A stretch of DNA of 64,000 nt from Arthrobacter mangrovi (lineage in GTDB: Bacteria; Actinomycetota; Actinomycetes; Actinomycetales; Micrococcaceae). The stretch's first letter is position 1; each line of letters opens with the position of its first letter. The notes beneath the pieces were generated by a model. That model saw only the letters and a list, made by a program, of their open reading frames with translations. It searched no databases and was not told the origin of the DNA. The stretch lies in NCBI RefSeq assembly GCF_026011795.1, contig NZ_BRVS01000008.1, forward strand, positions 124,001 to 188,000, in the 5' to 3' direction. Both the position numbers and the translations under genes were made by a program. This document shows, one piece after another, positions 2,492-15,258 of this stretch.

Positions 2492-5400
2492 CTAAACCCG
2501 ATTGGTCAGGCGGAGCACTTTGGGCTTGGCCCCGTCGATACTGTACCGAACTGTGTATCGGTGCGGCACTTTCGATTCGCCCCGGAACAGGTTGCGCACA
2601 TCGAATTCTATGGAAGTACCCGGATTCGCCCGCAGGAGCGCCTCCAGTTCACGCTCCACCCGGAAGAACGACGCTATGCCCGTTCGTCCGCCGTTCAGGA
2701 TCTTGCTCATCGGCGTGTAGTTCAGCCACTCCCGGATGCCTCCGAAGGCCCTGCCCAGCCCGTGGCCGCCTTCGTACTTGGCCTGGTGCTGGTACTCCGA
2801 GTACGGGCGCTTCGTGCCGTTCTCGTCAAGGCGTATGTCCTTCCCGCCGTTGAGCTCCGCGTTACCGATGTGGCCGACTTCGGTCTGGTTCACCCGGTGC
2901 CGGCCGCCGTCTGCCAGCGAGAGTGCGTCGACGTGGGTATGGACCGTCCTGCCCAGGTCGTCGGTCTTGACGACCATGTAGTCGTTGACATGGTAGGTGG
3001 CATTCGGAAGCGGGTTCTGCAGGTCGGGATTCAGCCGGCCGAACCGCTTCGTGGAGGTCTCGACCAGGACGACCTTGCCGTCGCCGTCCGTGTAGAACTT
3101 TCCGCGGCCGCTGACGTCGTAGAGCGTGTTGGGTTCCAGGTCGGTCCGTGCGCTGAAGATTTCCGTCTTCCGCAGGCCCTCGACCGGAACCTCGCGGACG
3201 ATCTCGGGCCGTGCGGCGTCAATGAGCTGCTGGCCGGCACTGGGACCCGGAGTAGGTGTGCTTGGCGTGGAAGGGCCGGTACCGCCGTCGAACTCCGCCA
3301 CGCGGTCCCAAATCTTGCCGTTGTAGACCCCCGTGAGCGTCTCTTTGCCCGAGCCGTTGATCTCCCACATCTCGGCACCCTTTTGGTACTGCACCGCGCC
3401 GATGTCCCGGTGGGTGGCCTCTTCCGGGATCAGGTCGCCGTTCGAGGATGTGCTGCTGGTGAAACCGTGTCCGGTGTTCGGGCTCGCGTCCCGGTGGGGC
3501 GATGGAGTGCTGTAGTCGTCCGGGGCATCCGGCCGGGCATGCGGGGCATCCGGGCCGTGCAGGGCGTCCATCATGCGCCCATCGGGCACCCGAACGTTTC
3601 CGATGGAGTCGGCCGTCCCCTGGAACCTGACCGCGTAGACCGGCAGCGAATTATCGGGCCGGTACGGCGTGTTGTCGTAGTCCAGCCGGAGGCCGTCGTG
3701 GATGTCTGCCGGCGTCCGAAGCCCGGCGGTGTGCTCCGCCCGCGAGATGTAGCCCATCGCGCCGCCCCGGTACGGGTTCGACGCATCGAAGAGGGCATCG
3801 GCGCTGCCGCGGTCCATGACCTTCTGGAACACCGTCGAGGTATCCGGTGCCGGGATGGAACGGCGGATGTCGTGGAGCGCGGCGGCATCTTCCGGCGAGA
3901 GTTCTTCGACCTGGCGTCCGACGACGTCGCGGAGCCAGTCCTCGTCCTTGCCGCTGCGTTCCAGCGCCTCGCGGACGTCGTCCCAGGCGTCGGCCTGGCG
4001 CAGGTTGGACAGGTTCGTGGTCACCTTGTGCTCGGTGCCGTCCGGGAACCGCACGATGCTCGGGTTGCCGTCGGCATCGCGGATCAATTCGCCCGCGGCG
4101 GGTCTTCCCGAGGTATCGGTTCCGGGAACAGAGCCAGCCTGGCCGTCCGCCGGGGCACCGCGGCCTGCCGGAGCCTCCGCCTCCGGAGTAGCGGCGGCCG
4201 GAGTGCGGTTGTCCCCCGAATCCGGCACGTTGGAGGCGGCATCCGTATCCGCGGCCGGGCCGCTGGGCTCCCGGGCGGGTGCATCCGCGTCGGCGTGGCC
4301 GGCCGGGCCGCGGTTGGGGCCGGAGGGGCCTTCGGTATCGAAGCGGGTGATGAGGTTGTCGATCCGGGTGCTGACCGGACCCGGGCCGTGGCCCGCGCTG
4401 ACGCCGGCGTAGGCGGGACGCGGACCGGACAGCGTGTTGCCGACGTCGTTAAGGAAGTTGTCCACGCGGACCGCGGCGGGTGCCATCCGGCCGAGGGTTA
4501 CGCGGGCGCTGTCGGTGGCGAAGTTGATGGTGTTGACCTTGAGCGCAGACCCGAGGTCCAGGACCTTGGTCGTCAGGCCGGCCATGCGGGAGAGGCCGCT
4601 GACGTTGACCACCGAGCCGATCTTGCTGCCGGTCTGGCCGATGCGGGTGACGGCGGAGGCGACCGAGCCGGTCTTGGCGACGGCACCGCCGCCGGCGGTG
4701 AGCAGGATGGATGCCAAGTCGAAGGTGGTGGCACCGGCGGCATACGCCGGGTCCCGCTTCCAGTCGTCCCAGTGGATGGCGGCCTTGCCGACGGCCACCA
4801 GCCGCTCCCCCGCCCCATCGGCGATGCGGCCGTTGCCGGTGGCACGCAGGGCGACCTGGGCCACCGGGGAAGTCACGATGGCCACGTCCAGCGCGAGCTG
4901 TCCGATCCCCTTCCAGGTCGCCGAGAACGTGTCCATGTCCGTGAAGTTGACCATGTTCCACAGGCCGGTCACGGTGCCGGTGATGCCGCTCCAAACGCCC
5001 TTGCCGAACGAGACGACCCCGTCCCATGCGTCCCGGTACCAGGGTTTGTCCCATTCGGTCGGCTCGCCCCAGGGGATGTGGCCCTCGGCGGTGGCGGCGT
5101 CGAGCTGCTCCGAGGTGTAGCCGTAGGCGACCTGGTTGGCGCCGGGGCCGTCCTCGGTGGTCACCACGTAGGAAGGACCGCCGAACAGGCCGGAGATGGC
5201 GCTCGCGCAGGCGCGTTCGGCGGCCATGTGGTCCTCGACCAGGACGTTGGCGTCCTTCAGGATCTGGTTGTCGTCATTGACCAGGTCCTCGTTCTTGCGC
5301 CAGTCGTCGCCCTCGTCGGCGATGCGCGCCCGCACCGAGAGCCAGTCGCTGTACAGGGCGTCGTAGCGCCGCTTGGCTTCGCGCGCCCACTCGGCATAGG

Positions 5401-5650
5401 TATCGATGGCGTCCGCGACTGAATTCGAGTCCTCCAGCACCGTGTCCGCCTCGGTGAGGACCCGGTTGAACGCCGAATGGACCTGCCAGTCCCCCGGTCC
5501 CTTATAGGCAGTGGCCGTGCCCTGCCAGATGCTGTGCGATTCCGAAGCCGCGGACTGGATGCCCTCAGCCTTGGTCCGGAGCTTGCCCGCGTGCTGTTCG
5601 AGCACCTCGGCATCCGGCAGCGGGGGAAACTCAGACGGGTTCCAGCCCAT
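2492..5650 (-). CDS. T7SS polymorphic toxin: WXG head, ART-like middle, His-Asn nuclease tail
   Basis: A 1052-residue candidate secreted toxin. Residues 1-110 form a helical hairpin with a WQG at 42-44, fitting a WXG/LXG-type export domain. Residues about 190-400 are hydrophobic and glycine-rich (pre-toxin region); 440-540 is a Pro/Ala/Asp-rich linker. Residues about 590-790 contain VYAVRF (about 669), GFTSSTS (about 729) and KGAEMWEI (about 758), an order recalling Arg-Ser-Glu ADP-ribosyltransferases. The C-terminal 230 residues carry YEGGHGLGRAFGG (His near 963) and NYTPM (Asn near 978), as in DNA/RNA non-specific endonucleases of the Endonuclea_NS_2/EssD group. The ATG has an AGAAGG site. 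It lies between WXG100 genes and a putative immunity gene. Confidence 0.8.
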   Translation of the reverse strand: MGWNPSEFPPLPDAEVLEQHAGKLRTKAEGIQSAASESHSIWQGTATAYKGPGDWQVHSAFNRVLTEADTVLEDSNSVADAIDTYAEWAREAKRRYDALYSDWLSVRARIADEGDDWRKNEDLVNDDNQILKDANVLVEDHMAAERACASAISGLFGGPSYVVTTEDGPGANQVAYGYTSEQLDAATAEGHIPWGEPTEWDKPWYRDAWDGVVSFGKGVWSGITGTVTGLWNMVNFTDMDTFSATWKGIGQLALDVAIVTSPVAQVALRATGNGRIADGAGERLVAVGKAAIHWDDWKRDPAYAAGATTFDLASILLTAGGGAVAKTGSVASAVTRIGQTGSKIGSVVNVSGLSRMAGLTTKVLDLGSALKVNTINFATDSARVTLGRMAPAAVRVDNFLNDVGNTLSGPRPAYAGVSAGHGPGPVSTRIDNLITRFDTEGPSGPNRGPAGHADADAPAREPSGPAADTDAASNVPDSGDNRTPAAATPEAEAPAGRGAPADGQAGSVPGTDTSGRPAAGELIRDADGNPSIVRFPDGTEHKVTTNLSNLRQADAWDDVREALERSGKDEDWLRDVVGRQVEELSPEDAAALHDIRRSIPAPDTSTVFQKVMDRGSADALFDASNPYRGGAMGYISRAEHTAGLRTPADIHDGLRLDYDNTPYRPDNSLPVYAVRFQGTADSIGNVRVPDGRMMDALHGPDAPHARPDAPDDYSTPSPHRDASPNTGHGFTSSTSSNGDLIPEEATHRDIGAVQYQKGAEMWEINGSGKETLTGVYNGKIWDRVAEFDGGTGPSTPSTPTPGPSAGQQLIDAARPEIVREVPVEGLRKTEIFSARTDLEPNTLYDVSGRGKFYTDGDGKVVLVETSTKRFGRLNPDLQNPLPNATYHVNDYMVVKTDDLGRTVHTHVDALSLADGGRHRVNQTEVGHIGNAELNGGKDIRLDENGTKRPYSEYQHQAKYEGGHGLGRAFGGIREWLNYTPMSKILNGGRTGIASFFRVERELEALLRANPGTSIEFDVRNLFRGESKVPHRYTVRYSIDGAKPKVLRLTNRV

Positions 5651-5705: not shown

Positions 5706-6089
5706 CTACTGCATTTGCGGCTGCCGGCCGCGGGGAGGGGCCCCGGACGGCGCCGGCTCCGGGATGTATTCGTCGTTGGCCTTGTCCTGGGCGGCACGGA
5801 CCGACTGGGCCATGGTGGAATCCCCGGCGACGATGGCGTTCACGGCCTCGGTCGTCGAATTAAGGGCCTGCGCGCTGCGGCCCTGGACCTGCGTCATGGC
5901 GGCCTGCAGCTTCTCCTCGGACAGGCTGACAAGGGCCTCCCCGACAATCTGCGACTTGGACGCCTGGATCAGGGAGGAGACCTCCGCTCCGTAGTCCTCG
6001 AACAGCTGCGTGTACTTCTCCACCTGCGACTGCACCCTGGTCAGGATGCTGTTCAGGGAGCCGGTATCGAGATCCCAATCCGCTGCCAT
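5706..6089 (-). CDS. Helical T7SS-associated protein (DUF6507-like)
   Basis: A 127-residue, mostly alpha-helical protein with no membrane segment and a flexible Pro/Gly/Gln tail from about residue 105. It begins MAADWDLDTGSL, reminiscent of the short DUF6507-type proteins found beside actinobacterial WXG100 genes; that family name is from memory and tentative. It is encoded between a WXG100-like gene and the large toxin. A role as a co-secreted partner or chaperone for the toxin's helical head is plausible but inferred from position and helical content only. Confidence 0.6.
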   Translation of the reverse strand: MAADWDLDTGSLNSILTRVQSQVEKYTQLFEDYGAEVSSLIQASKSQIVGEALVSLSEEKLQAAMTQVQGRSAQALNSTTEAVNAIVAGDSTMAQSVRAAQDKANDEYIPEPAPSGAPPRGRQPQMQ

Positions 6090-6143: not shown

Positions 6144-6449
6144 CTAGCCGATGTTCTGCACGGCGGCGCGGGCACGGGCGCCGGTGTTGGCAGCGGTCTG
6201 GTCGTTCTGCTCCATGGTGCTGCGGACGAGGCGGATAATCTCCTTGACCTCGCCGGCTGCGTTCTTCCAGCGGTTTTCCACGTGCTGGTACTCCTCGGAG
6301 ACGCCGTCGGCCTGGTAGTCGGACATGGCGGCGGCAACGGCCTTCTCCCGGTCGGCGATGAGGCTCTCGAGGCGGCCGACGATGGACTGGATTTCGCCCT
6401 GGACCTGGGCGGAGACGTTGGTGTCGTACGTGAGGCGATCCTGGGACAT
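6144..6449 (-). CDS. WXG100-like (ESAT-6 family) protein
   Basis: About 101 residues predicted to form a two-helix hairpin, size and shape typical of ESX substrates. The turn region reads DYQADGVSEEY, so the usual Trp of the W-x-G turn appears replaced by an aromatic Tyr, with a Trp retained on the second helix (ENRWKNA). The start at 6449 is chosen because AAAGGA sits about five bases upstream; a longer reading frame from 6494 has no site. Likely secreted by the neighbouring EccC/EccD machine, perhaps as a heterodimer with the product of the next upstream gene. Confidence 0.75.
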   Translation of the reverse strand: MSQDRLTYDTNVSAQVQGEIQSIVGRLESLIADREKAVAAAMSDYQADGVSEEYQHVENRWKNAAGEVKEIIRLVRSTMEQNDQTAANTGARARAAVQNIG

Positions 6450-6525
6450 TGCTGTTCCTTTCAGAAGGCGGCGGTGCTCTTGGCCCGCCTGCAAAGCATG
6501 GGTGGAAGAGGTGCAGACAGCAGGG

Positions 6526-6861
6526 TCAGCGCGAGGAGCCGAAGTTGGCCGCGTCGAAGTTGGCGGAGCCCTGTGCCTGCGCGGCGTTGTCAGCGGACTC
6601 CTGGTCGCCGGTGTGGAAGGCGGTATCCATCTCGCTCTGGCCGGTCAGGATCGCGGCGAGGGCACCGTTGAGGTTATTGGCGATCTCGTCGGCCCGGGAC
6701 TTGAACTCGTCGAACTTCACACGGGCCTGGCCGTTGAACTTGCCCTCCAGCGGAGCGACTGCGTCGACGAGGTTGCGGACCAGCTGGCCCAGGTCCTCAT
6801 TGGATCCGCCGGTCTGCGAAGTCAGCTGCGACAGGGTCTGGGATCCCATATCGAATTTCAT
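6526..6861 (-). CDS. WXG100-like (ESAT-6 family) protein
   Basis: About 111 residues, two predicted helices joined by a turn reading KFNGQARVKF, in which the WXG tryptophan appears as Phe (F-N-G). The C-terminal tail is Ala/Gln/Asn-rich. ATG at 6861 is preferred over a GTG three codons earlier because AGGTGG lies at ideal distance from the ATG. It is the first gene of the leftward effector run and is divergent from the secretion-machinery genes. WXG100 proteins are small secreted dimers that accompany ESX effectors; pairing with the adjacent WXG100-like protein is inferred. Confidence 0.8.
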   Translation of the reverse strand: MKFDMGSQTLSQLTSQTGGSNEDLGQLVRNLVDAVAPLEGKFNGQARVKFDEFKSRADEIANNLNGALAAILTGQSEMDTAFHTGDQESADNAAQAQGSANFDAANFGSSR

Positions 6862-7153
6862 TGTTACCACCTTTGCGGGCGCACTGGCGCTCTAGTTTCG
6901 GTCTGGTTTATCGTTTCCAGAAGCTGCCCGCAGTTTGCCCTTCATCAAGCGGAGGGTCTGGGGCTGTCGGCCTCTTCAATGAAACCGCAAGCGCCCAAAT
7001 GTCTGCAAGGAAGGGCGATGGGGAGAACTACCCACCCGGCCCGCCGCGGCCCGATTGTGTCGGCCGGAGGTGACATGATGGAAAGCGCCGGCCCTCCTTG
7101 CCGCCGGCGAAACCTTTCCACATGCTGAATCAGCGACCAACGAGGAGTCCTGG
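6862..7153. promoter_or_regulatory. Divergent intergenic region of the T7SS locus
   Basis: About 290 bp separate the leftward effector genes from the rightward machinery genes and must contain both promoters. The stretch is locally less GC-rich near 6890-7010 than its flanks. I could not assign convincing -35/-10 pairs by eye. The rightward first gene has GAGGAG just upstream of its GTG. Confidence 0.5.
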
Positions 7154-7456
7154 GTGGCCAACGATTACGACAACCAGCTCATCGAGTCCGTCGTCGTCCG
7201 GCGCAACCGCATCACCTCCGCACTGCTGTACGGGGACAACCCGCATCAGCGCCGGTGGGTGGACAGCGTCAGGCTCTTCCTGTTCAGCATCGCCCTGGCC
7301 GCCCTGATCGCCGCTATCTGTGTCGGCTATTCCTTTATCAGCAATCTGCTGGCGCAGCAGCGCGCGGAACAGCAGCAGCGCCAGTCCGCGGCCGTAGAAC
7401 TGCAGCAATCCACTGGACCCGGGGCCGAGCCCCTCGAAATCATTCCGGGAGCCTGA
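7154..7456 (+). CDS. Single-pass membrane protein resembling the EccB N-terminus
   Basis: A 100-residue protein with a basic N-terminal segment (RRNRITSALLYGD, residues 16-28), one transmembrane helix (about 43-66) and a short Gln-rich outer tail. The pattern of a double-Arg, a short ALL-x-G-D step, a further Arg, and then a membrane helix is what the N-terminus of EccB looks like. Here the large periplasmic domain of EccB is missing. Start GTG 7154 has a GAGGAG ribosome-binding site. It is the first gene of the rightward T7SS operon, five bases before eccD. Inference: a minimal EccB substitute that anchors the EccC/EccD complex. It could instead be an unrelated small membrane protein. Confidence 0.6.
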   Translation: MANDYDNQLIESVVVRRNRITSALLYGDNPHQRRWVDSVRLFLFSIALAALIAAICVGYSFISNLLAQQRAEQQQRQSAAVELQQSTGPGAEPLEIIPGA

Positions 7457-7461
7457 CCGCA

Positions 7462-8784
7462 ATGCCCCTTGCCTTCACCCGCGTCACGCTGATCGGCGAT
7501 AGCCGTCATCTGGACCTGCTGCTCCCCTCCGAAGAGCCCGTCGGGACGCTCATGCCGCAGATCCTGGACATGCTGGCGGACTCCCCGCGGGACAATGTCG
7601 CCGCAAAGCTCCTGGTCCAGGCCTCCGGCGAACCGCTGGCGGAACAGCAGAGCCTGGCGGACCACGGGGTCACCGACGGCAGCAAGCTCACCCTGTTCAG
7701 CGCGTCCGACGCTCCTCCGCCCGCCGTGGTCTACGACGTCACGGACACCGTCGTGGAACAGACCGAGGCCGTGGCCGGCCGCTGGGACGAGCGCTGCCGC
7801 CACGCGGCCGCCGGCGTCTTCGCGGCAGCGGGCAGCTGGGCGGCGCTGGAGATCATGCTGGCCAGCTTTGCGGCGCCGCACGCCTGGTGGATCCTGCTGG
7901 CCCTCGCCGTCGTGCTGCTGGGCGCGTCCACGGGCTTCGGTGCCCGGCCCCGTCGAAGCATCGGCCTGACCCTGGCCGGGACCGGCTGGCTGTTCGGGCT
8001 GGGCACAGTGCTGCACCTGCCCGCGACGGCTGAGGTCAAGGTGCTGGTCCTGGCGGGCTTGTCCGCGGCTGCCTTGGCCGCCATCGGAATGGTGCTGGGA
8101 CGCTCCCGGGCACTCTTCGGCGCGGCCGGAACCCTGGTTGCGCTGACCGCGGTCTGGGCAGCCAGCGGGCTCGCCGGCACTGCCCCGCGCACGGCCGCGA
8201 TTGCCGGCATCCTGAGCATTGTCGGGCTGGGCCTGCTGCCCAAAACCGCCCTCTCCCTCTCCGGCCTGGCGACGCTGGATGACCAGCGTTCCCAGGGCCG
8301 CTCCATCCGCAGGACGGATGCGCTGGCCGCCATCGATGACGCACACCGCACCCTCGCCGTCGGAACCGTGCTCGTGGCGCTCTCGCTCGCCGCGGCGATG
8401 TGGCTCCTGGGCACGGACGCGGCGGACCCGGTCTGGACCCTGCCGCTGCTGGCGGCGCTGGTCCTCGCCACCGCGCTGCGCGCACGGTCCTTCCCCCTGG
8501 CCGTCGAGCGGCTGGCCCTCTACGCGGCCGCCTCGCTGGGCGTCGCCGCCCTGGCGCTGTCCGCGGCCCGGTACATGGCGGGCTCCGAATGGCTGGTGGG
8601 CCTGCTCCTGCTGGCGACCGCGCTGATCATCGGCTCGGCCCTCGCGCTGCGACTACCGGCACATTCGGCTGCAAGGCTCCGGTTGGCCGGCAACCGCCTC
8701 GAAACCATCGCCATCCTCGCCACCGTGCCGCTGGTGCTGGGGCTTTTCGGCCTCTTTGCCCAGCTGCTCGCCAGCTTCCCGTGA
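7462..8784 (+). CDS. eccD: EccD-type T7SS membrane channel subunit
   Basis: A 440-residue integral membrane protein. Residues about 1-90 form a ubiquitin/YukD-like cytosolic domain (strands around LAFTRVTLIG and KLLVQASGEPL). The rest contains about ten or eleven hydrophobic helices, from about residue 115 to the C-terminus. This architecture is diagnostic of EccD, which forms the core of the ESX inner-membrane channel. ATG 7462 is chosen because translation from it gives the YukD domain directly; it lies five bases after the preceding stop. It belongs to the operon that ends with eccC and the DUF6177-like gene. Confidence 0.85.
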   Translation: MPLAFTRVTLIGDSRHLDLLLPSEEPVGTLMPQILDMLADSPRDNVAAKLLVQASGEPLAEQQSLADHGVTDGSKLTLFSASDAPPPAVVYDVTDTVVEQTEAVAGRWDERCRHAAAGVFAAAGSWAALEIMLASFAAPHAWWILLALAVVLLGASTGFGARPRRSIGLTLAGTGWLFGLGTVLHLPATAEVKVLVLAGLSAAALAAIGMVLGRSRALFGAAGTLVALTAVWAASGLAGTAPRTAAIAGILSIVGLGLLPKTALSLSGLATLDDQRSQGRSIRRTDALAAIDDAHRTLAVGTVLVALSLAAAMWLLGTDAADPVWTLPLLAALVLATALRARSFPLAVERLALYAAASLGVAALALSAARYMAGSEWLVGLLLLATALIIGSALALRLPAHSAARLRLAGNRLETIAILATVPLVLGLFGLFAQLLASFP

Positions 8785-8836
8785 CCGCGATGCGCTCCGC
8801 CCGCCCCGTCCCACTCCGTCCGGAAGGATGCCCTCA

Positions 8837-9820
8837 GTGACCTACGATCCGTGGAGCCCGCAGCCCGGCCCGCAGACCCGGCGCCAGGCCCAGGCCCTCG
8901 CCGCGGCGGACGGCGGCGGTTTCGAATCCGCCTCGGAGGCGTCCCGCCGCCGGCTGCGCACGCGCCCCGGCATGCCTGCCGGCCGCCGGTTCCTGCGCCA
9001 GCTCAGCGGCCTCTTCCGTTCCGACGACTACTCGCAGCGGCTGATCGCGGCGGCAGCCGGGGTGCAGGACCCGGTCTCCACGGGCCGCAGGATCGCGGTC
9101 ATCAGTTCGCGCGGCGGGTCCGGCAAGACAACGACGACGGCGGTCCTCGCCTCGGTCTTCGCGTCCATGCGGCAGGATGCCGTGGCGGCCGTGGACAATG
9201 ACCCGGGCCTCGGCTCGCTCCCCCTTCGCCTGGGCCTCGATTCCGCTCCGTCCCTCGACCTGCTGGCCTCCGCCGTCGCTCAGAAGGCGCCGGAGACGCG
9301 CGATGAGCTTGCCGCCCGGATGGCCGCGGCGGACGGGAACCTCTTCGCGACCGGGGCACGGCTGTGGCATCCCCGGGCGGATGCGCAGGCGCTGGACCGC
9401 GCGGTGACCAGCCTCAGCCGCTTCTTCCCCATCACCCTGCTGGACTCCCCGACCGGGATCAGCCATCCGGACGCAGTCTGGGCGGTCAAGGCGGCGCACG
9501 CGGTACTGCTGGTGGTTCCGGCGACCGTCGCGGGAAGACAGGACGCGCTCGTCTACCACCAGGCGTGGCAGCAGGACCCGGCCACCCGCGAGGTCCCGCT
9601 GCTGGCCGTGGTAACCGGCACGGATGCCGGCGCCCCGCTGGACCCGGTACGCGAGGCCGTCCGGCTCAGCCGCGACGGGCTCGACGCCATGACCCTGCCC
9701 TACGACCGGCACCTGGCCGCCGGCGTGGAGATCGACCTGGCCCTGCTCGCGCCGCAGACCCGGCTGGACGCGACGGCGCTGGCCTCGCGGGTGCTGCTGG
9801 CTGCCAACGGGAACCGCTGA
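8837..9820 (+). CDS. MinD/ParA-like P-loop ATPase of the T7SS locus
   Basis: A 327-residue cytosolic ATPase. After an approximately 90-residue basic N-terminal segment there is a deviant Walker A loop reading SSRGGSGKTTTT. The usual ParA/MinD signature Lys before the glycines is replaced by Arg. A partner Asp motif (VDNDPGLG) and a switch-like LLDSPTG segment follow. GTG 8837 is preferred over ATG 8828 because GGAAGGA then sits at normal distance. MinD-like proteins (for example EspI) accompany several actinobacterial ESX systems and may couple energy state to export. The gene ends two bases before eccC, suggesting translational coupling. Confidence 0.75.
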   Translation: MTYDPWSPQPGPQTRRQAQALAAADGGGFESASEASRRRLRTRPGMPAGRRFLRQLSGLFRSDDYSQRLIAAAAGVQDPVSTGRRIAVISSRGGSGKTTTTAVLASVFASMRQDAVAAVDNDPGLGSLPLRLGLDSAPSLDLLASAVAQKAPETRDELAARMAAADGNLFATGARLWHPRADAQALDRAVTSLSRFFPITLLDSPTGISHPDAVWAVKAAHAVLLVVPATVAGRQDALVYHQAWQQDPATREVPLLAVVTGTDAGAPLDPVREAVRLSRDGLDAMTLPYDRHLAAGVEIDLALLAPQTRLDATALASRVLLAANGNR

Positions 9821-9822
9821 CC

Positions 9823-12800
9823 ATGGGCGTGACATTGATCCACCGCCCCGCCCGGACCACCGCCCCGGCCCGCAGCGCCGAGCCGTATGCCCTGGACGCG
9901 CCGCCGCCCGTCACCGACCGCCCGGGCGGAGTGAACATGATGTCGCTCGTCCCGCTGCTCGGTGCCGGCGCATCGATGACCGTAATGATGCTCTTCCGCG
10001 GTTCCTCGCTGGCGGCCGTCGGCGCGCTGATGATGATCGTGACCATCCTCGCCTCTATTGCCCTGATGATCAGCCAAAAGGGCAAGCAGGCCCGGCAGGG
10101 CCGCGAGCAGCGCGAGCGCTACCTGGAGTACCTGGAGCGCGCGCGGACCGAGCTGCGCAGCGACGAGCAGCAGGCGATCAGGGTCGCGCGCATTGCCAGC
10201 CCGCCGCCGTCGGCCTTGTTCGACATCATCCGCAATCCGAAACGGCTGTGGGAACGGCGGCGGCGCAATGAGGATTTCCTGCACGTCCGGCTGGGCAGCG
10301 GGGAACGGCGCAACCGCGACATCCGGGTCAATGATTCCTCCTCCAGCCTGCAGCAGAACGACACGTTCATGACCACCGAACTGGAGATCCTCCGGCAGCG
10401 GTTCGAGTCCTCTCCCGAGCTGCCGCTGACGGTGCCGCTGGATTCGGCCGGCAACGTCAGCGTGGTCGGCTCCCGGGAGTTCGCCCTAGCCGTCTGCCGC
10501 AACCTCCTGCTGGAGGCGGCCGCCTTCCATTCGCCCGAGGACCTGCACGTCGCACTCTCCGTCCCCGAAGACCGTTACGACGACTGGGCGTGGGCGACGT
10601 GGCTGCCGCACCTGGCCGACCAGTCCAAAACGCATGCCACCGGTCCGGTGCGGCGGCTCGCGCCGTCGCTGGAGGCGCTGGCGGACGTCCTGAAGGATGA
10701 CCTGCAGGGCCGCTCCACCAAGGCCGCGGCGGCGCGGCAGAACCACCTGGGCCGCAGCGCAGGCGGCGTCGGCAGCGGCATGCCGCGGCTGCTCGTCATC
10801 GCGGACACCTATGGCGAGGAACCGCAGGAGCTCGTGCTGCCGGAGAAGCATTCGAGCCCCGGACAGCTTGGCATCACCGTCATCTATCTGGCCGGGAACC
10901 GCGGCTCCGAGCCGGGCGAGGTCAGCATCCGGATCAGCGAGACCGGCACCGGCCCGGGCGCTTTCGCGAGCCAGAACTACCGGGAGGATCCGGTCGAGCC
11001 GCTGACCGAAGAGGGCACTCTGGACGAGCTCCCCGTGGCCACGGCGGAGGCGCTGGCCCGCGAGCTGGCACCGCTGCGGCTGTCCCCGGACTCGCTGGAA
11101 CACAACAGCACCGAGAGCTCGACGGACTACCTGGAGATGCTCGGGCTGTCGAAGCGGCTGGATGCCGAGGACGTCCGCAGGCTGTGGCGGCCGCGCGGCG
11201 AAATCGATTTCCTGCGGGTGCCGCTGGGGCCGGACGACCGCGGCAAGCCCGCGATGCTTGACCTCAAGGAGGCGGCCCAGTTCGGCATGGGCCCGCACGG
11301 CCTCTGTGTTGGCGCCACCGGCTCGGGCAAGTCCGAGATGCTGCGCAGCCTGGTGCTCGGCCTGCTCGCCACGCACTCCCCCGAGGTGCTGGCCATGGTG
11401 CTGGTGGACTTCAAGGGCGGCGCGACGTTCGCCCCGTTCGAGGGCGCACCGCAGGTCACCGGCATCATCACGAACCTCTCCGACGACCTGTCCCTGATCG
11501 AGCGCGTCTATGCCAGCCTGAATGGCGAAATCCTGCGCCGCCAGGAACTGCTGAAGGCCGCCGGCAACATCGCCAACATCACCGACTACCAGCTGCACCG
11601 CCAGGAACGGCTGGCCCGCGGGGAGCATATGGACCCGCTGCCCCACCTGGTGGTCATCATCGACGAGTTCGGCGAACTGCTGACCGCACGGCCGGACTTC
11701 ATCGAACTGTTCCTGTCCATCGGCCGCATCGGCCGCTCCATCGGCGTGCACCTGCTGCTCAGCAGCCAGCGCATCGAGGGCGGCAAGCTGCGCGGCCTGG
11801 ACACCTACCTGTCCTACCGGATCGGGCTGCGCACTCTCTCCGAGGCGGAAAGCCGCACTGTGCTGGACACCCCGGATGCCTTCCACCTGCCGCCGGCGCC
11901 GGGATTCGGCTACCTCAAGGTGGACACCACCACCTACACCCGTTTCAAGTCCGGCTACGTGTCCGGTCCGGTGGACGTGGAAGAGGACGACGACGAACCG
12001 CAGGCCGCCGAGCCTATGGTCCTCCGCGCCCCGCGCTATGCCGCCGTGCTGGAGGCGCCGCCGCCGTCGGCTGCCGGGAAGAAGTCGGGGCTGAAGACCA
12101 AGGCGTCCCAGCGCACCACCGGCCCGACGGTCATGTCCACCCTGATGGACACCCTGCGGACCTTCCCGCGCTCAGTGCAGCCGATCTGGCTGCCGCCGCT
12201 GCCCCGGGGCATCGCGCTGGACAAGGCCGCCGGTTCGGCCGCGGCGACCAGCCAGGGCATCCGGCTGGCCAAGGGCGGCAATCTGCGCGTGCCCATAGGG
12301 CTGCTGGATGATCCGGCCAAGCAGTGGCAGGGGCTGTGGGAGCTGGACCTGAACAACGCCGGCGGCAATGTCATCATCGTCGGCGGCCCGCAGTCGGGCA
12401 AAAGCACCGCGCTGCGCACCATCGTGGCGAGCCTGGCGCTGACCCACGGCCCCGCCGAGGTGGGCATCTACGCTGTCGACCTGCTGGGCAGTTCCCTGCT
12501 GCCGCTGGAGGGCCTGCCGCACGTGGGCGGCGTGGCCGTGCGCACCAACCGCGAGGTCGTGCGGCGGACGATCGAGGAGGTCGCGGCGATGCTGACGCTG
12601 CGCGAGCAGGTCTTCGAGCGGTACCAGATCGATTCCCTCCAGACGCTGCGGCGGATGTGCGCCAAGGGCATGGTCCCCGAGCTGGCCAGTGCGGACATTG
12701 TCCTGGTACTGGACGGTTACGGCCAGCTCAGCGACGAGTTCGACGACATCGAGAAGCAGGTGCATTCGATCATCTCGCGCGGGGGCGGCTACGGCATCCA

Positions 12801-13842
12801 CGTCATCGCGACCTCCGTCCGCACCAACGAAGTGCGGATCGCGCAGCAGAGCTTCTTCGGCAACCGCATCGAACTGCGGCTGGGCGACCCCGCCGAATCC
12901 GCATTCGGGCGGAAGCTCGCCGAAGGCATCAGCGCGGACCGGCCCGGCCGCGGCCTCATGGACCAGAAGCTGATCGGGCACATCGCGCTGCCGAGGATCG
13001 ACGGAAATCCGGATCCGGACAGCGCGGTCCAGGGCATGCGGGACCTGGTGGCCGCGGTGGCGGCCTCTACGGACGGGCGTGCCATGCAGGTCCGGGTGCT
13101 CCCGCCGCTGGTGGACGCCGCCACGGCCCGGATTCCCGCGCGGCAGGGCCGGATTCCGCTGGGCCTGCGCGAGACGGACCTGGGCGCCGAGTACCTGGAC
13201 ATGCACTCAAAGGACCGGCATCTTGTGGTGCTCGGCGACGAGGGCGCGGGAAAGTCCAACCTGATGCGCTCGGTGATCCGTTCCCTCTCCGCCCAGCACG
13301 GGCCCGAGGAGCTGGTCTTCGCGGTGTTCGATCCGCGCCGGGGGCTGGCCGACGAGGTGCCCGAGGCATACCTAGGCGGCTACGCCACGAGCCCGGCGCT
13401 GGCGGAGCAGCTGGCCGGCGCCGTCGCCACGGAACTGGACAAGCGGGTCAACGGCGACGGCGAAGCCGGCAACGGCGGGAAGCCGCCGCGCGTGGTCCTC
13501 CTGATCGATGATTACGACGTGCTCACCGCGGGCGGCTCCTCGCCGCTGAGCCGCCTGGTTCCCTACCTGCCGCTGGGACCCGAGATCGGCCTGCACGCCG
13601 TACTCACCCGCCGCGTGCGCGGGGCGAGCCGGGGCATGTACGAGTCCTTCTTCATGTCACTGCGGGATTCGGGCAGTACCGGCATCCTGATGTCCGGCGA
13701 CCGCGGCGAAGGCGCCCTGCTCAATGGGATCCGCGCGCGTGCGCTGCCGCCGGGCCGGGCCCAACTGGTGCAGGCGGGCAAGCCCGTCAATACGGTCCAG
13801 CTCTACTACCACAGCACGGAAGAGGAAACCGATGAGCTCTGA
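9823..13842 (+). CDS. eccC: EccC, FtsK/SpoIIIE-type T7SS motor ATPase (fused Ca-Cb)
   Basis: A 1339-residue motor that recognises and drives substrates through the ESX channel. The N-terminus has the RPAR...APPP pattern of EccC and two membrane helices at about residues 40-85. Three FtsK-like ATPase domains follow, with Walker A loops GATGSGKS (about 497), GGPQSGKS (about 855) and GDEGAGKS (about 1138). The first domain keeps a full Walker B with DEF (about residue 614); the second has LDGYG and the third IDDYD, so the later two may bind but not hydrolyse ATP well. In many mycobacterial systems this protein is split; here it is one chain. Its 3' end overlaps the next gene by 11 bases. Confidence 0.92.
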   Translation: MGVTLIHRPARTTAPARSAEPYALDAPPPVTDRPGGVNMMSLVPLLGAGASMTVMMLFRGSSLAAVGALMMIVTILASIALMISQKGKQARQGREQRERYLEYLERARTELRSDEQQAIRVARIASPPPSALFDIIRNPKRLWERRRRNEDFLHVRLGSGERRNRDIRVNDSSSSLQQNDTFMTTELEILRQRFESSPELPLTVPLDSAGNVSVVGSREFALAVCRNLLLEAAAFHSPEDLHVALSVPEDRYDDWAWATWLPHLADQSKTHATGPVRRLAPSLEALADVLKDDLQGRSTKAAAARQNHLGRSAGGVGSGMPRLLVIADTYGEEPQELVLPEKHSSPGQLGITVIYLAGNRGSEPGEVSIRISETGTGPGAFASQNYREDPVEPLTEEGTLDELPVATAEALARELAPLRLSPDSLEHNSTESSTDYLEMLGLSKRLDAEDVRRLWRPRGEIDFLRVPLGPDDRGKPAMLDLKEAAQFGMGPHGLCVGATGSGKSEMLRSLVLGLLATHSPEVLAMVLVDFKGGATFAPFEGAPQVTGIITNLSDDLSLIERVYASLNGEILRRQELLKAAGNIANITDYQLHRQERLARGEHMDPLPHLVVIIDEFGELLTARPDFIELFLSIGRIGRSIGVHLLLSSQRIEGGKLRGLDTYLSYRIGLRTLSEAESRTVLDTPDAFHLPPAPGFGYLKVDTTTYTRFKSGYVSGPVDVEEDDDEPQAAEPMVLRAPRYAAVLEAPPPSAAGKKSGLKTKASQRTTGPTVMSTLMDTLRTFPRSVQPIWLPPLPRGIALDKAAGSAAATSQGIRLAKGGNLRVPIGLLDDPAKQWQGLWELDLNNAGGNVIIVGGPQSGKSTALRTIVASLALTHGPAEVGIYAVDLLGSSLLPLEGLPHVGGVAVRTNREVVRRTIEEVAAMLTLREQVFERYQIDSLQTLRRMCAKGMVPELASADIVLVLDGYGQLSDEFDDIEKQVHSIISRGGGYGIHVIATSVRTNEVRIAQQSFFGNRIELRLGDPAESAFGRKLAEGISADRPGRGLMDQKLIGHIALPRIDGNPDPDSAVQGMRDLVAAVAASTDGRAMQVRVLPPLVDAATARIPARQGRIPLGLRETDLGAEYLDMHSKDRHLVVLGDEGAGKSNLMRSVIRSLSAQHGPEELVFAVFDPRRGLADEVPEAYLGGYATSPALAEQLAGAVATELDKRVNGDGEAGNGGKPPRVVLLIDDYDVLTAGGSSPLSRLVPYLPLGPEIGLHAVLTRRVRGASRGMYESFFMSLRDSGSTGILMSGDRGEGALLNGIRARALPPGRAQLVQAGKPVNTVQLYYHSTEEETDEL

Positions 13843-14251
13843 TTGGACCGTGGTCAGCCTCCGCGAGCCCGACCAGCTGACCCTGGTCGAGGCCATGGTG
13901 GCGGCCGTGCCGGACCTGAACGTCCGCCAGGCTGCGGGCGATTCCCTGCTCGAGCTGCTTGATGATGCAGGCGAGCTCCAGCTGGCCATCGAGCTGCCCC
14001 GGCTCGTCCGGGTGCCGCAGGAAGCGACGCGGCTGCTTGCCGGGGCCGAGATCTCGGCCGTGCCCGGCACGCCTGTTCCGGCCATCTTCAGCCCGGGCAG
14101 CGGGAATCCGGCAGACCAGCCGCTGTGGTGGCAGGAAATCCACGTCCGCGACGGCGCACCAAAGGCAACCGTCCGGGCGGAATCCCTCTGCCACGAAATT
14201 GCCCGCCGATGCGACGGCGTCGTGGCCCTGCCGCAGGTTGCCGGCGCATGA
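13832..14251 (+). CDS. Hypothetical T7SS-associated protein
   Basis: A 139-residue soluble acidic protein with no recognised domain, signal or membrane segment. Predicted alternating strands and helices include LQLAIELPRLVRVP (residues about 50-63) and a hydrophobic ending. Its ATG lies inside the last codons of eccC and its stop overlaps the next start by ATGA, so it is translationally coupled on both sides. Such coupling suggests a stoichiometric partner of EccC or the next protein. No function can be assigned from sequence. Confidence 0.65.
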   Translation: MSSDWTVVSLREPDQLTLVEAMVAAVPDLNVRQAAGDSLLELLDDAGELQLAIELPRLVRVPQEATRLLAGAEISAVPGTPVPAIFSPGSGNPADQPLWWQEIHVRDGAPKATVRAESLCHEIARRCDGVVALPQVAGA

Positions 14252-15258
14252 GCCACGAATCCGCCTTCGACTTCCGCAGCGCCGGCACCGGCGTGGTGTT
14301 CCAGAACAAGCCGCTGGCCACCCTCTCGCCGTGGCTGGCCAAGTCGCGCGCCGCCGCGGCCGCGGACGCCATGCAGTTCGTGCTGGTCACGCCGAGCTCC
14401 ACCGCCATCAGCCTGCCGTTGTCGGCGCTGCTCGCGGAACCGGGCTGCCAATGGCTGGCGACCACGGAGGACGGCACCTTCTTCGACGGATTCACCGGCC
14501 GCGTGCACGCCTGGGACGGCGCGGCCTTCCGGCCCCTGGAAGAGATCGGAGAGGACTTCCTGCTCACACCGGCGCTGCCCGGCGGGCTGGTCCACGTTCG
14601 GGCGGAAACCATGCATCCGGCCAGCCACTCCACCCGGATCGGCGGCTTTACCGAGCAGCTGTTCATCGAACTTACCGGTGCCGCCCCCACCGGCTGGGGC
14701 GTGGCCGAACCCGTCAGCGAGCCGTGGGACGAAGCCGCCGTCACCGCGCACTGCTTCGATCTCGCCCCGGAGACAGCGTTGCTGGTGGTGGTGGGGCACG
14801 CCCGGGTCGGAACCGCGTCACCGGCCATCGCCGTCGTCACGGTGGAACGCTCTGCCGCCGGCGTCCACGAAAGCGTCGAACTACTGGTGGAGAGCCCGGA
14901 ACCGCTCGATGCCGCGGCGCTTGATTCCTTCAGCGCGCGCATGCACCGGATCCATGCCCGCACCGCCGTGCTGGGGCACGCCCTCGCCTTCGACGGCCTT
15001 GCCCGGCCCGCCCGATTCACGGGAGTATCAGTGCCGGCCTGTGCGGTCTTCGGTCCGGAGGCCCTGCGGGATTACGGTGCCAATGCCGCCCTGGCCGCGG
15101 CCGGACCCCGCGCCAGGCTGATCGGCGTGGCCCCCGCCCAGTCGCTGGCGGTCCAGTACCAGCAGGAGCCGGACGGGGAACGCCACCCGCTGGAGGCATG
15201 GGCCATGCTCTGTGCGCGGCTGTCCGGAGAACCGGGACCGGCGGACGGGCTGGAATAG
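14248..15258 (+). CDS. DUF6177-like T7SS-associated protein
   Basis: A 336-residue soluble protein that I recall as resembling the DUF6177 family found at actinobacterial type VII loci; that assignment is from memory. The N-terminal third is a helical and strand-rich segment (FVLVTPSSTAISLPLSALL). The C-terminal half reads like an alpha/beta domain with hydrophobic strands (ALLVVVGHARVG, PAIAVVTVERSA). No signal peptide or catalytic motif was recognised. It is the terminal gene of the machinery operon, coupled by an ATGA overlap to the 139-residue protein. The function of the family is not known to me. Confidence 0.65.
   Translation: MSHESAFDFRSAGTGVVFQNKPLATLSPWLAKSRAAAAADAMQFVLVTPSSTAISLPLSALLAEPGCQWLATTEDGTFFDGFTGRVHAWDGAAFRPLEEIGEDFLLTPALPGGLVHVRAETMHPASHSTRIGGFTEQLFIELTGAAPTGWGVAEPVSEPWDEAAVTAHCFDLAPETALLVVVGHARVGTASPAIAVVTVERSAAGVHESVELLVESPEPLDAAALDSFSARMHRIHARTAVLGHALAFDGLARPARFTGVSVPACAVFGPEALRDYGANAALAAAGPRARLIGVAPAQSLAVQYQQEPDGERHPLEAWAMLCARLSGEPGPADGLE

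Follow-up and report, generated by a model that had tools for sequence, protein, structure and literature searches.

Can a type VII secretion system (T7SS) operate with an EccB that is reduced to its cytoplasmic tail and membrane helix, and thus without any periplasmic chamber? This question is raised by a locus in a 64,000-nucleotide stretch of the Arthrobacter mangrovi genome (the window; assembly GCF_026011795.1, contig NZ_BRVS01000008.1, positions 124,001 to 188,000), where a plus-strand machinery operon (7154-15258) encodes a 100-residue single-helix protein, EccD, a MinD-like ATPase, fused EccC and two soluble proteins. A first-pass annotation had described this layout, and all six genes are indeed in place. 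The best explanation, which we regard as probable, is a T7SS lineage distinct from the canonical T7SSa, in which the cytoplasmic and membrane clamp of EccB suffices without a chamber of EccB and mycosin (MycP). The core of the system consists of the small protein, hereafter mini-EccB, together with EccD, the MinD-like ATPase (at nearly all loci), EccC and a nearby Esx pair, which is divergent in A. mangrovi.

The mini-EccB gene (7154..7456, plus strand, GTG start) codes for 100 amino acids that comprise a cytoplasmic tail and linker, one membrane helix and a Q/A-rich tail of about 36 residues. The protein has a single strongly hydrophobic stretch, whose best 19-residue window begins at residue 39; five Lys/Arg residues lie before the helix and two after it, and by the positive-inside rule the N-terminus is probably inside. 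The outer, post-helix part varies: among 27 aligned minis of the family it spans 7-80 residues and appears by eye Q-rich or otherwise of low complexity. The proteins of 39 named loci are all short (84-153 amino acids), and longer forms of 167-169 amino acids, with a DPxTG-like repeat tail after the helix, occur at six of 20 loci from other groups (L120, L127, L129, L145, L147 and L148; L and G numbers are our handles for loci and genomes).

The N-terminal and membrane part of EccB is what this protein had been said to resemble, and the placement by profiles agrees with that. Using hhalign, a profile of 27 minis matched one of 20 EccB N-termini at 95.2%, and a profile of 42 minis matched EccB at 96.3%. 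As controls, 92 windows were taken from the other proteins encoded at the locus (24 have a membrane-like stretch), and these reached 23% at most. Block-shuffling the EccB profile 60 times gave 75% for the version with the best score, and no shuffle scored as high as the true profile. When 8651 open reading frames (ORFs) of the fetched loci were searched with the mini profile, the top nine non-mini hits were all EccB (E 2.9e-5 to 0.52), corresponding to five genes after removal of repeats (G653, G409, G280, G399 and G233). The alignment is in register, with profile positions 8-57 on residues 6-56 of the G409 EccB and 7-55 on residues 5-54 of that of G280, and R17 of EccB is aligned to R19 of the mini-protein, an Arg in 41 of 42 mini rows and 20 of 20 EccB rows. 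These profiles support mini-EccB as a homologue of the cytoplasmic tail, linker helix and membrane helix of EccB only.

Mini-EccB is a conserved part of the system. It was found in 51 of 197 genomes of the family, in 17 of 32 genera; EccC was above cut-off in 51 of the 197 and 50 genomes hold both (Fisher p ~1e-44, not corrected for relatedness), so that the small protein goes with EccC. Four genomes with two minis also have two EccCs. In G001, EccC occurs without a mini; a full EccB is present in its stead, next to an S8 protease. The mini of G065 is accompanied by an EccC match over part of the model only (485.4 bits). The gene order mini-EccD-MinD-EccC with an adjoining divergent Esx pair recurs at 18 of 20 fetched family loci; at L069 MinD was seen only with a profile, and at L072 the Esx pair lies about 6 kb away. 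Of 20 loci from other families and from family f5, 18 have a MinD match, in some cases a weak one (19-37 bits), between EccD and EccC, and at the four f5 loci the Esx genes are on the same strand. Two mini-type systems can be present in one genome (L067/L068 and L078/L079).

In wider sets of genomes, the mini profile matched 20 of 248 from the order, one of which (G653) is a full-length EccB in the same place (TIGR03919, 155.4 bits), leaving 19 minis; EccC was above cut-off in 59 of these 248. Five of 246 genomes of the phylum were matched, namely A. mangrovi and four of family f5, with genomes of 8-10 Mb. Related loci also occur in other Micrococcales families. A scan that used patterns from family members, and therefore leans towards the family, gave the 39 named loci: 34 in Micrococcaceae (including Arthrobacter, Paenarthrobacter, Kocuria, Zhihengliuella, Tersicoccus, Micrococcus and Citricoccus), four in Micromonosporaceae (Virgisporangium, Actinoplanes and two Micromonospora) and one in a bin labelled Acidobacteria. 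The latter (L173) holds a Micrococcaceae-like copy of the system and is probably mis-binned. No mini match was found in 72,556 plasmid records at E 0.01, and the plasmid EccC matches (68 records) all have less than 60% identity.

In regards to the missing components, the first-pass annotation had seen no periplasmic EccB domain and no EccE at the locus, and profile searches found neither EccB (PF05108; TIGR03919) nor EccE elsewhere in the A. mangrovi genome (99.99% complete) at E 0.001. The EccB search exceeded its cut-off in 14 of the 246 phylum genomes and in all four control genomes. That for EccE did so only in the controls G399 and G233 (two of four); it gave partial matches of 19-21 bits in three mini genomes, and no match in the EccB-bearing G280 and G409 either. 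Across 72 genomes, comprising 68 with a mini-profile match and the four controls (the four f5 mini genomes are outside this set), EccB was matched in six: the controls, G653, whose profile match is itself a full EccB, and G508, where a match of 120.8 bits, below cut-off, lies at another locus. EccB was therefore not found in any of the 51 mini genomes of the family, nor in 66 of the 67 of family and order together, G508 being the exception. Among the 14 largest protein clusters listed from 34 mini loci, no conserved replacement for the periplasmic part was present at most loci; the two largest clusters were of an RDD-FHA ORF, seen at 13 loci, and of an ORF next to the toxin, at 8. In other Micrococcales and in L069, mini-EccB is preceded on its own strand, at a distance of 0.6-2.0 kb, by an ORF with a C-terminal FHA domain (L069, L120, L122, L124-L129 and L147); in the two scanned, from L125 and L127, FHA was above and RDD below cut-off.

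The locus had been described as a stripped-down ESX architecture, which the EccC phylogeny does not bear out. The tree holds 65 of 90 rows (those set aside are 25 rows from 24 named loci, for the most part near-duplicates) and was built by a quick method with SH-aLRT support only, some long branches and four lower-scoring EccC-like proteins as outgroup. The 54 mini-type rows form one group (SH-aLRT 96) and the seven EccB-type rows another (100), and neither lies within the other. Because the mini-type clade stands beside the EccB-bearing clade and not inside it, the tree does not prefer loss to gain; the periplasmic domain may equally well have been lost in the one lineage or gained in the other. 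The TIGR03924 score was also considered as a separator of the two EccC types and is not clean, as five order genomes without a mini match (G496, G522, G445, G595 and G657) score in or below the mini range; a full EccB is present in the stretch fetched from four of these, and that of the fifth is cut short by the end of its contig. A mini-type EccC profile does separate the types, with at least 1394 bits for unsplit mini-type rows and at most 1136 for others, although it was trained on one side only and the split EccC of L163 falls below. All 20 loci fetched with this profile check lack the mini; in the other 15, EccB is in the stretch in six and was not seen in nine, where the fetched stretch may end short of it. 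L203-L206 and many family genomes hold a second class of EccC-like proteins, which served here as outgroup only; these score about 280-371 bits to TIGR03924, and among the rows listed they are mostly open frames of 1435-1690 amino acids.

Several results weigh against a chamberless T7SS built on an EccB module. The EccBs of G508, G001 and G323 rank only 49th, 63rd and 74th among the non-mini hits of the profile search, which is noise level. PF05108 matches only two of 27 minis singly (best E 0.006), and unrelated membrane families match more of them or match better. The A. mangrovi protein has no EccB match in the Pfam and NCBIfam scans, and neither PF05108 nor TIGR03919 is above cut-off; PDB searches gave no EccB either. 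Single-sequence routes through these databases thus yielded nothing significant, and it is by profiles alone that the N-terminal tail, linker and membrane helix are matched. MinD went undetected in the interval from EccD to EccC at L127 and L145 (two of the 20 loci outside the main set), and three of the four f5 mini genomes (G302, G323 and G388) hold a full EccB elsewhere, where help in trans is possible. A system without EccB, EccE and mycosin might also be impaired or need unknown parts. The mini-protein could be a non-homologous single-helix subunit in a similar place, as TsdH and TseK may be in T7SSd and T7SSe. A short membrane helix holds little information, the single-sequence matches to EccB are weak, and small single-helix subunits have been described in T7SSd/e (PMC11217815; this and the other papers cited are drawn on in part). 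We nevertheless consider such a subunit unlikely, given that it is opposed by the window and shuffle controls, by the first rank of EccB among the ORFs searched, and by the register with two EccBs and the aligned invariant Arg, a comparison made against EccB only, with TsdH outside it.

A further alternative is that the system uses a mycosin in trans. The first-pass annotation had reported no mycosin, which holds for the secretion system, since none is linked to it, but not for the genome, as a mycosin-like subtilase is present at G000:C1:119766-120917 (L110:9171-10616). This protein has a signal peptide (by eye), an S8 domain (158.4 bits) and a C-terminal hydrophobic stretch, that is, the layout of a mycosin, and its 241.7 bits, although below the cut-off of 278.75, are near the 261.4 and 255.8 bits of the EccB-adjoining subtilases of G280 and G409. 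It lies between ppx and ndh2, near eno, in a housekeeping locus, and the ndh2-S8-ppx-eno order is complete in 15 of 16 fetched loci, in genomes with and without the secretion system alike. Subtilases match in 70 of the 72 genomes surveyed, above the mycosin cut-off only in G399 and G233, and matches at E 1e-50 or better are as common in mini genomes (42 of 51) as in others (124 of 146, p 0.66). A FastTree of 19 rows, each with an aligned piece of more than 200 residues and two of the rows being identical, separates the 10 from the eno locus from the nine of ESX loci with support 99, and G001 holds both kinds. Since the protease sits at the eno locus, is equally common without the system and is separate in the tree, its recruitment by the system seems quite improbable; the search of the rest of the genome yielded no full-length eccB, eccE or mycP that belongs to the system. 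The least probable of the alternatives, to which we give hardly any weight, is a decaying or non-functional remnant of a canonical ESX locus. It would be in line with the lack of an EccB periplasmic domain, of EccE and of a linked mycosin, and with the split EccC of a few loci (L163). However, a remnant is at odds with conservation in 17 of 32 genera and in other families, with a single EccC clade and with near-invariant residues.

How might a T7SS built on a mini-EccB be assembled? In ESX-3, EccB reaches across protomers with its N-terminal tail, which contacts EccB, EccC and both copies of EccD; EccC and EccD are also contacted by its linker helix, and EccD helix 11 by its membrane helix, which meets EccC helix 2 via lipid (PMC6986878). 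If the same part behaves alike here, mini-EccB would touch the EccC stalk, the EccD linker and the last EccD helix, clamping neighbouring protomers from the cytoplasmic and membrane side, and judging from those ESX-3 contacts its helix would anchor the complex, as had been suggested. The EccC/EccD ring would then form with no EccB-MycP chamber on the periplasmic side, and Esx-type substrates would pass folded and directly through the single membrane. That no mycosin is linked to the system is in keeping with the lack of the periplasmic part of EccB, on which mycosin docks. The ESX-3 authors thought the periplasmic EccB domain essential for oligomerisation (PMC6986878), and ESX-5 has a chamber made of the periplasmic parts of EccB, which MycP5 caps and stabilises and which is taken as a central secretion conduit (PMC8131196). 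EsxN and PPE18 were no longer secreted when eccB5, eccE5 or mycP5 was deleted (PMC10597459), and therefore the mini-type variant must work differently from ESX-5.

The remaining genes of the operon follow mini-EccB on the plus strand. EccD (7462..8784) combines a ubiquitin-like domain with a multi-helix membrane domain (PF08817 52.9, PF19053 59.7 and TIGR03920 128.8 bits, all above cut-off), the MinD/ParA-like ATPase (8828..9820, start codon uncertain) matches PF01656 above cut-off (31.2 bits), and EccC (9823..13842) is a single chain with all ATPase domains (TIGR03924 755.8 and TIGR03925 635.1 bits, above cut-off). P139 (13832..14251), a soluble 139-residue protein of unknown family, had no Pfam or NCBIfam match at E 1 and has homologues in related loci; the last gene (14248..15258) encodes a DUF6177 protein (PF19674 217.1 bits, above cut-off). 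By coordinates, eccC overlaps P139 and P139 overlaps the DUF6177 gene. Upstream, on the minus strand and divergent from the operon, a WXG100-like protein (6526..6870) has FNG at the WXG position (by eye) and two matches below cut-off (PF06013 25.1 bits, cut-off 27.3; TIGR03930 29.6 bits, cut-off 44.85). It is accompanied on that strand by a second ESAT-6-like protein (6144..6494; NF035935 158.6 bits, above cut-off, residues 19-116), whose true start is probably inside the ORF, by a DUF6507 protein (5706..6089; PF20117 52.4 bits, above cut-off), perhaps a partner of the large substrate, and by a 1052-residue protein (2492..5650) with a C-terminal DNA/RNA nuclease domain (PF13930 45 bits, above cut-off, residues 952-1040). 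The WXG100-like match at the N-terminus of the latter is not significant (E 0.29 and 0.089); this protein is a likely substrate, and all four genes probably encode substrates. Three small minus-strand ORFs adjoin the nuclease gene (506-2476), perhaps immunity or orphan genes; that at 2051-2476 has a sub-threshold YezG-like match (E 0.015), and the other two had no match at E 0.1.

Of 20 family loci, 11 have both DUF6177 and a homologue of the toxin and nine have neither (p 6e-6, not corrected for relatedness). At 20 other loci both are present in 14 and neither in three, with the toxin only in L122 and DUF6177 only in L146 and L149, both near a contig end. P139 and DUF6177 lie within one ORF in four f5 loci. 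These patterns suggest a substrate-adaptor role, and P139 and DUF6177 would probably adapt the large nuclease-bearing substrate to the machinery. Of the two mini-type systems of G134, one carries both the toxin homologue and DUF6177, and the other lacks both.

Garrett et al. 2024 describe T7SSa to T7SSj (PMC11217815), and a helix-only EccB type is not among these in the parts of that paper examined; a word search of its main text for Micrococc, Arthrobacter, Streptomyces and Micromonospora gave none. Literature searches likewise returned no description of a helix-only EccB system at the level of titles and abstract openings. The Micromonospora lupini genome paper lists an eccC (40438) separate from its three clusters (PMC4182475), and our guess from the numbering is that this is the mini-type EccC of L189. 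Whether we have here an undescribed T7SS subtype, one that is common among Micrococcales, occurs also in Micromonosporaceae and the large-genome family f5, and exports without any periplasmic chamber, is in our estimate an even call. If true, the universal job of EccB would be that of a cytoplasmic and membrane clamp, and the canonical lineage may have added its periplasmic domain and mycosin to an ancestral machine that had neither. A natural anchor-only EccB system would separate the inner-membrane step from the chamber, would offer a smaller machine for structural work and would make the role of EccB testable in soil bacteria.

Among known types, T7SSd of Olsenella and Bifidobacterium is likewise actinobacterial with a small single-helix subunit, but its described components include an ATPase with FHA, a kinase and TsdI, and no ubiquitin-like protein (PMC11217815), whereas the A. 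mangrovi system has a ubiquitin-like domain on EccD. No FHA was found among the 25 best Pfam matches of EccC, and no kinase match among the ten window proteins scanned (the rest of the genome was not searched, nor was TsdI searched for). ESX-1 has in EspI a MinD/ParA-like protein, a MinD-like ATPase beside eccD. Of what marks a T7SS in general, the EccC/EssC-type ATPase (TIGR03924 and TIGR03925) and a WXG100/ESAT-6 protein at the locus (NF035935) are both found above cut-off, the other Esx partner being below. With T7SSa (ESX-3, ESX-5 and the ESX-4-like systems) are shared EccC, the Esx proteins, an EccD with ubiquitin-like and membrane domains (PF08817, PF19053 and TIGR03920) and the N-terminal/membrane module of EccB, in which about 55 residues are in register with the EccB family (PF05108/TIGR03919) by profiles, without a significant single-sequence match. 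EccE is absent from some ESX-4 systems as well. The mini-type system differs from T7SSa in having no full-length EccB with a periplasmic domain, no EccE and no dedicated, linked mycosin, and it is set apart by an EccC in a separate clade and by a MinD-like gene inside the machinery operon.

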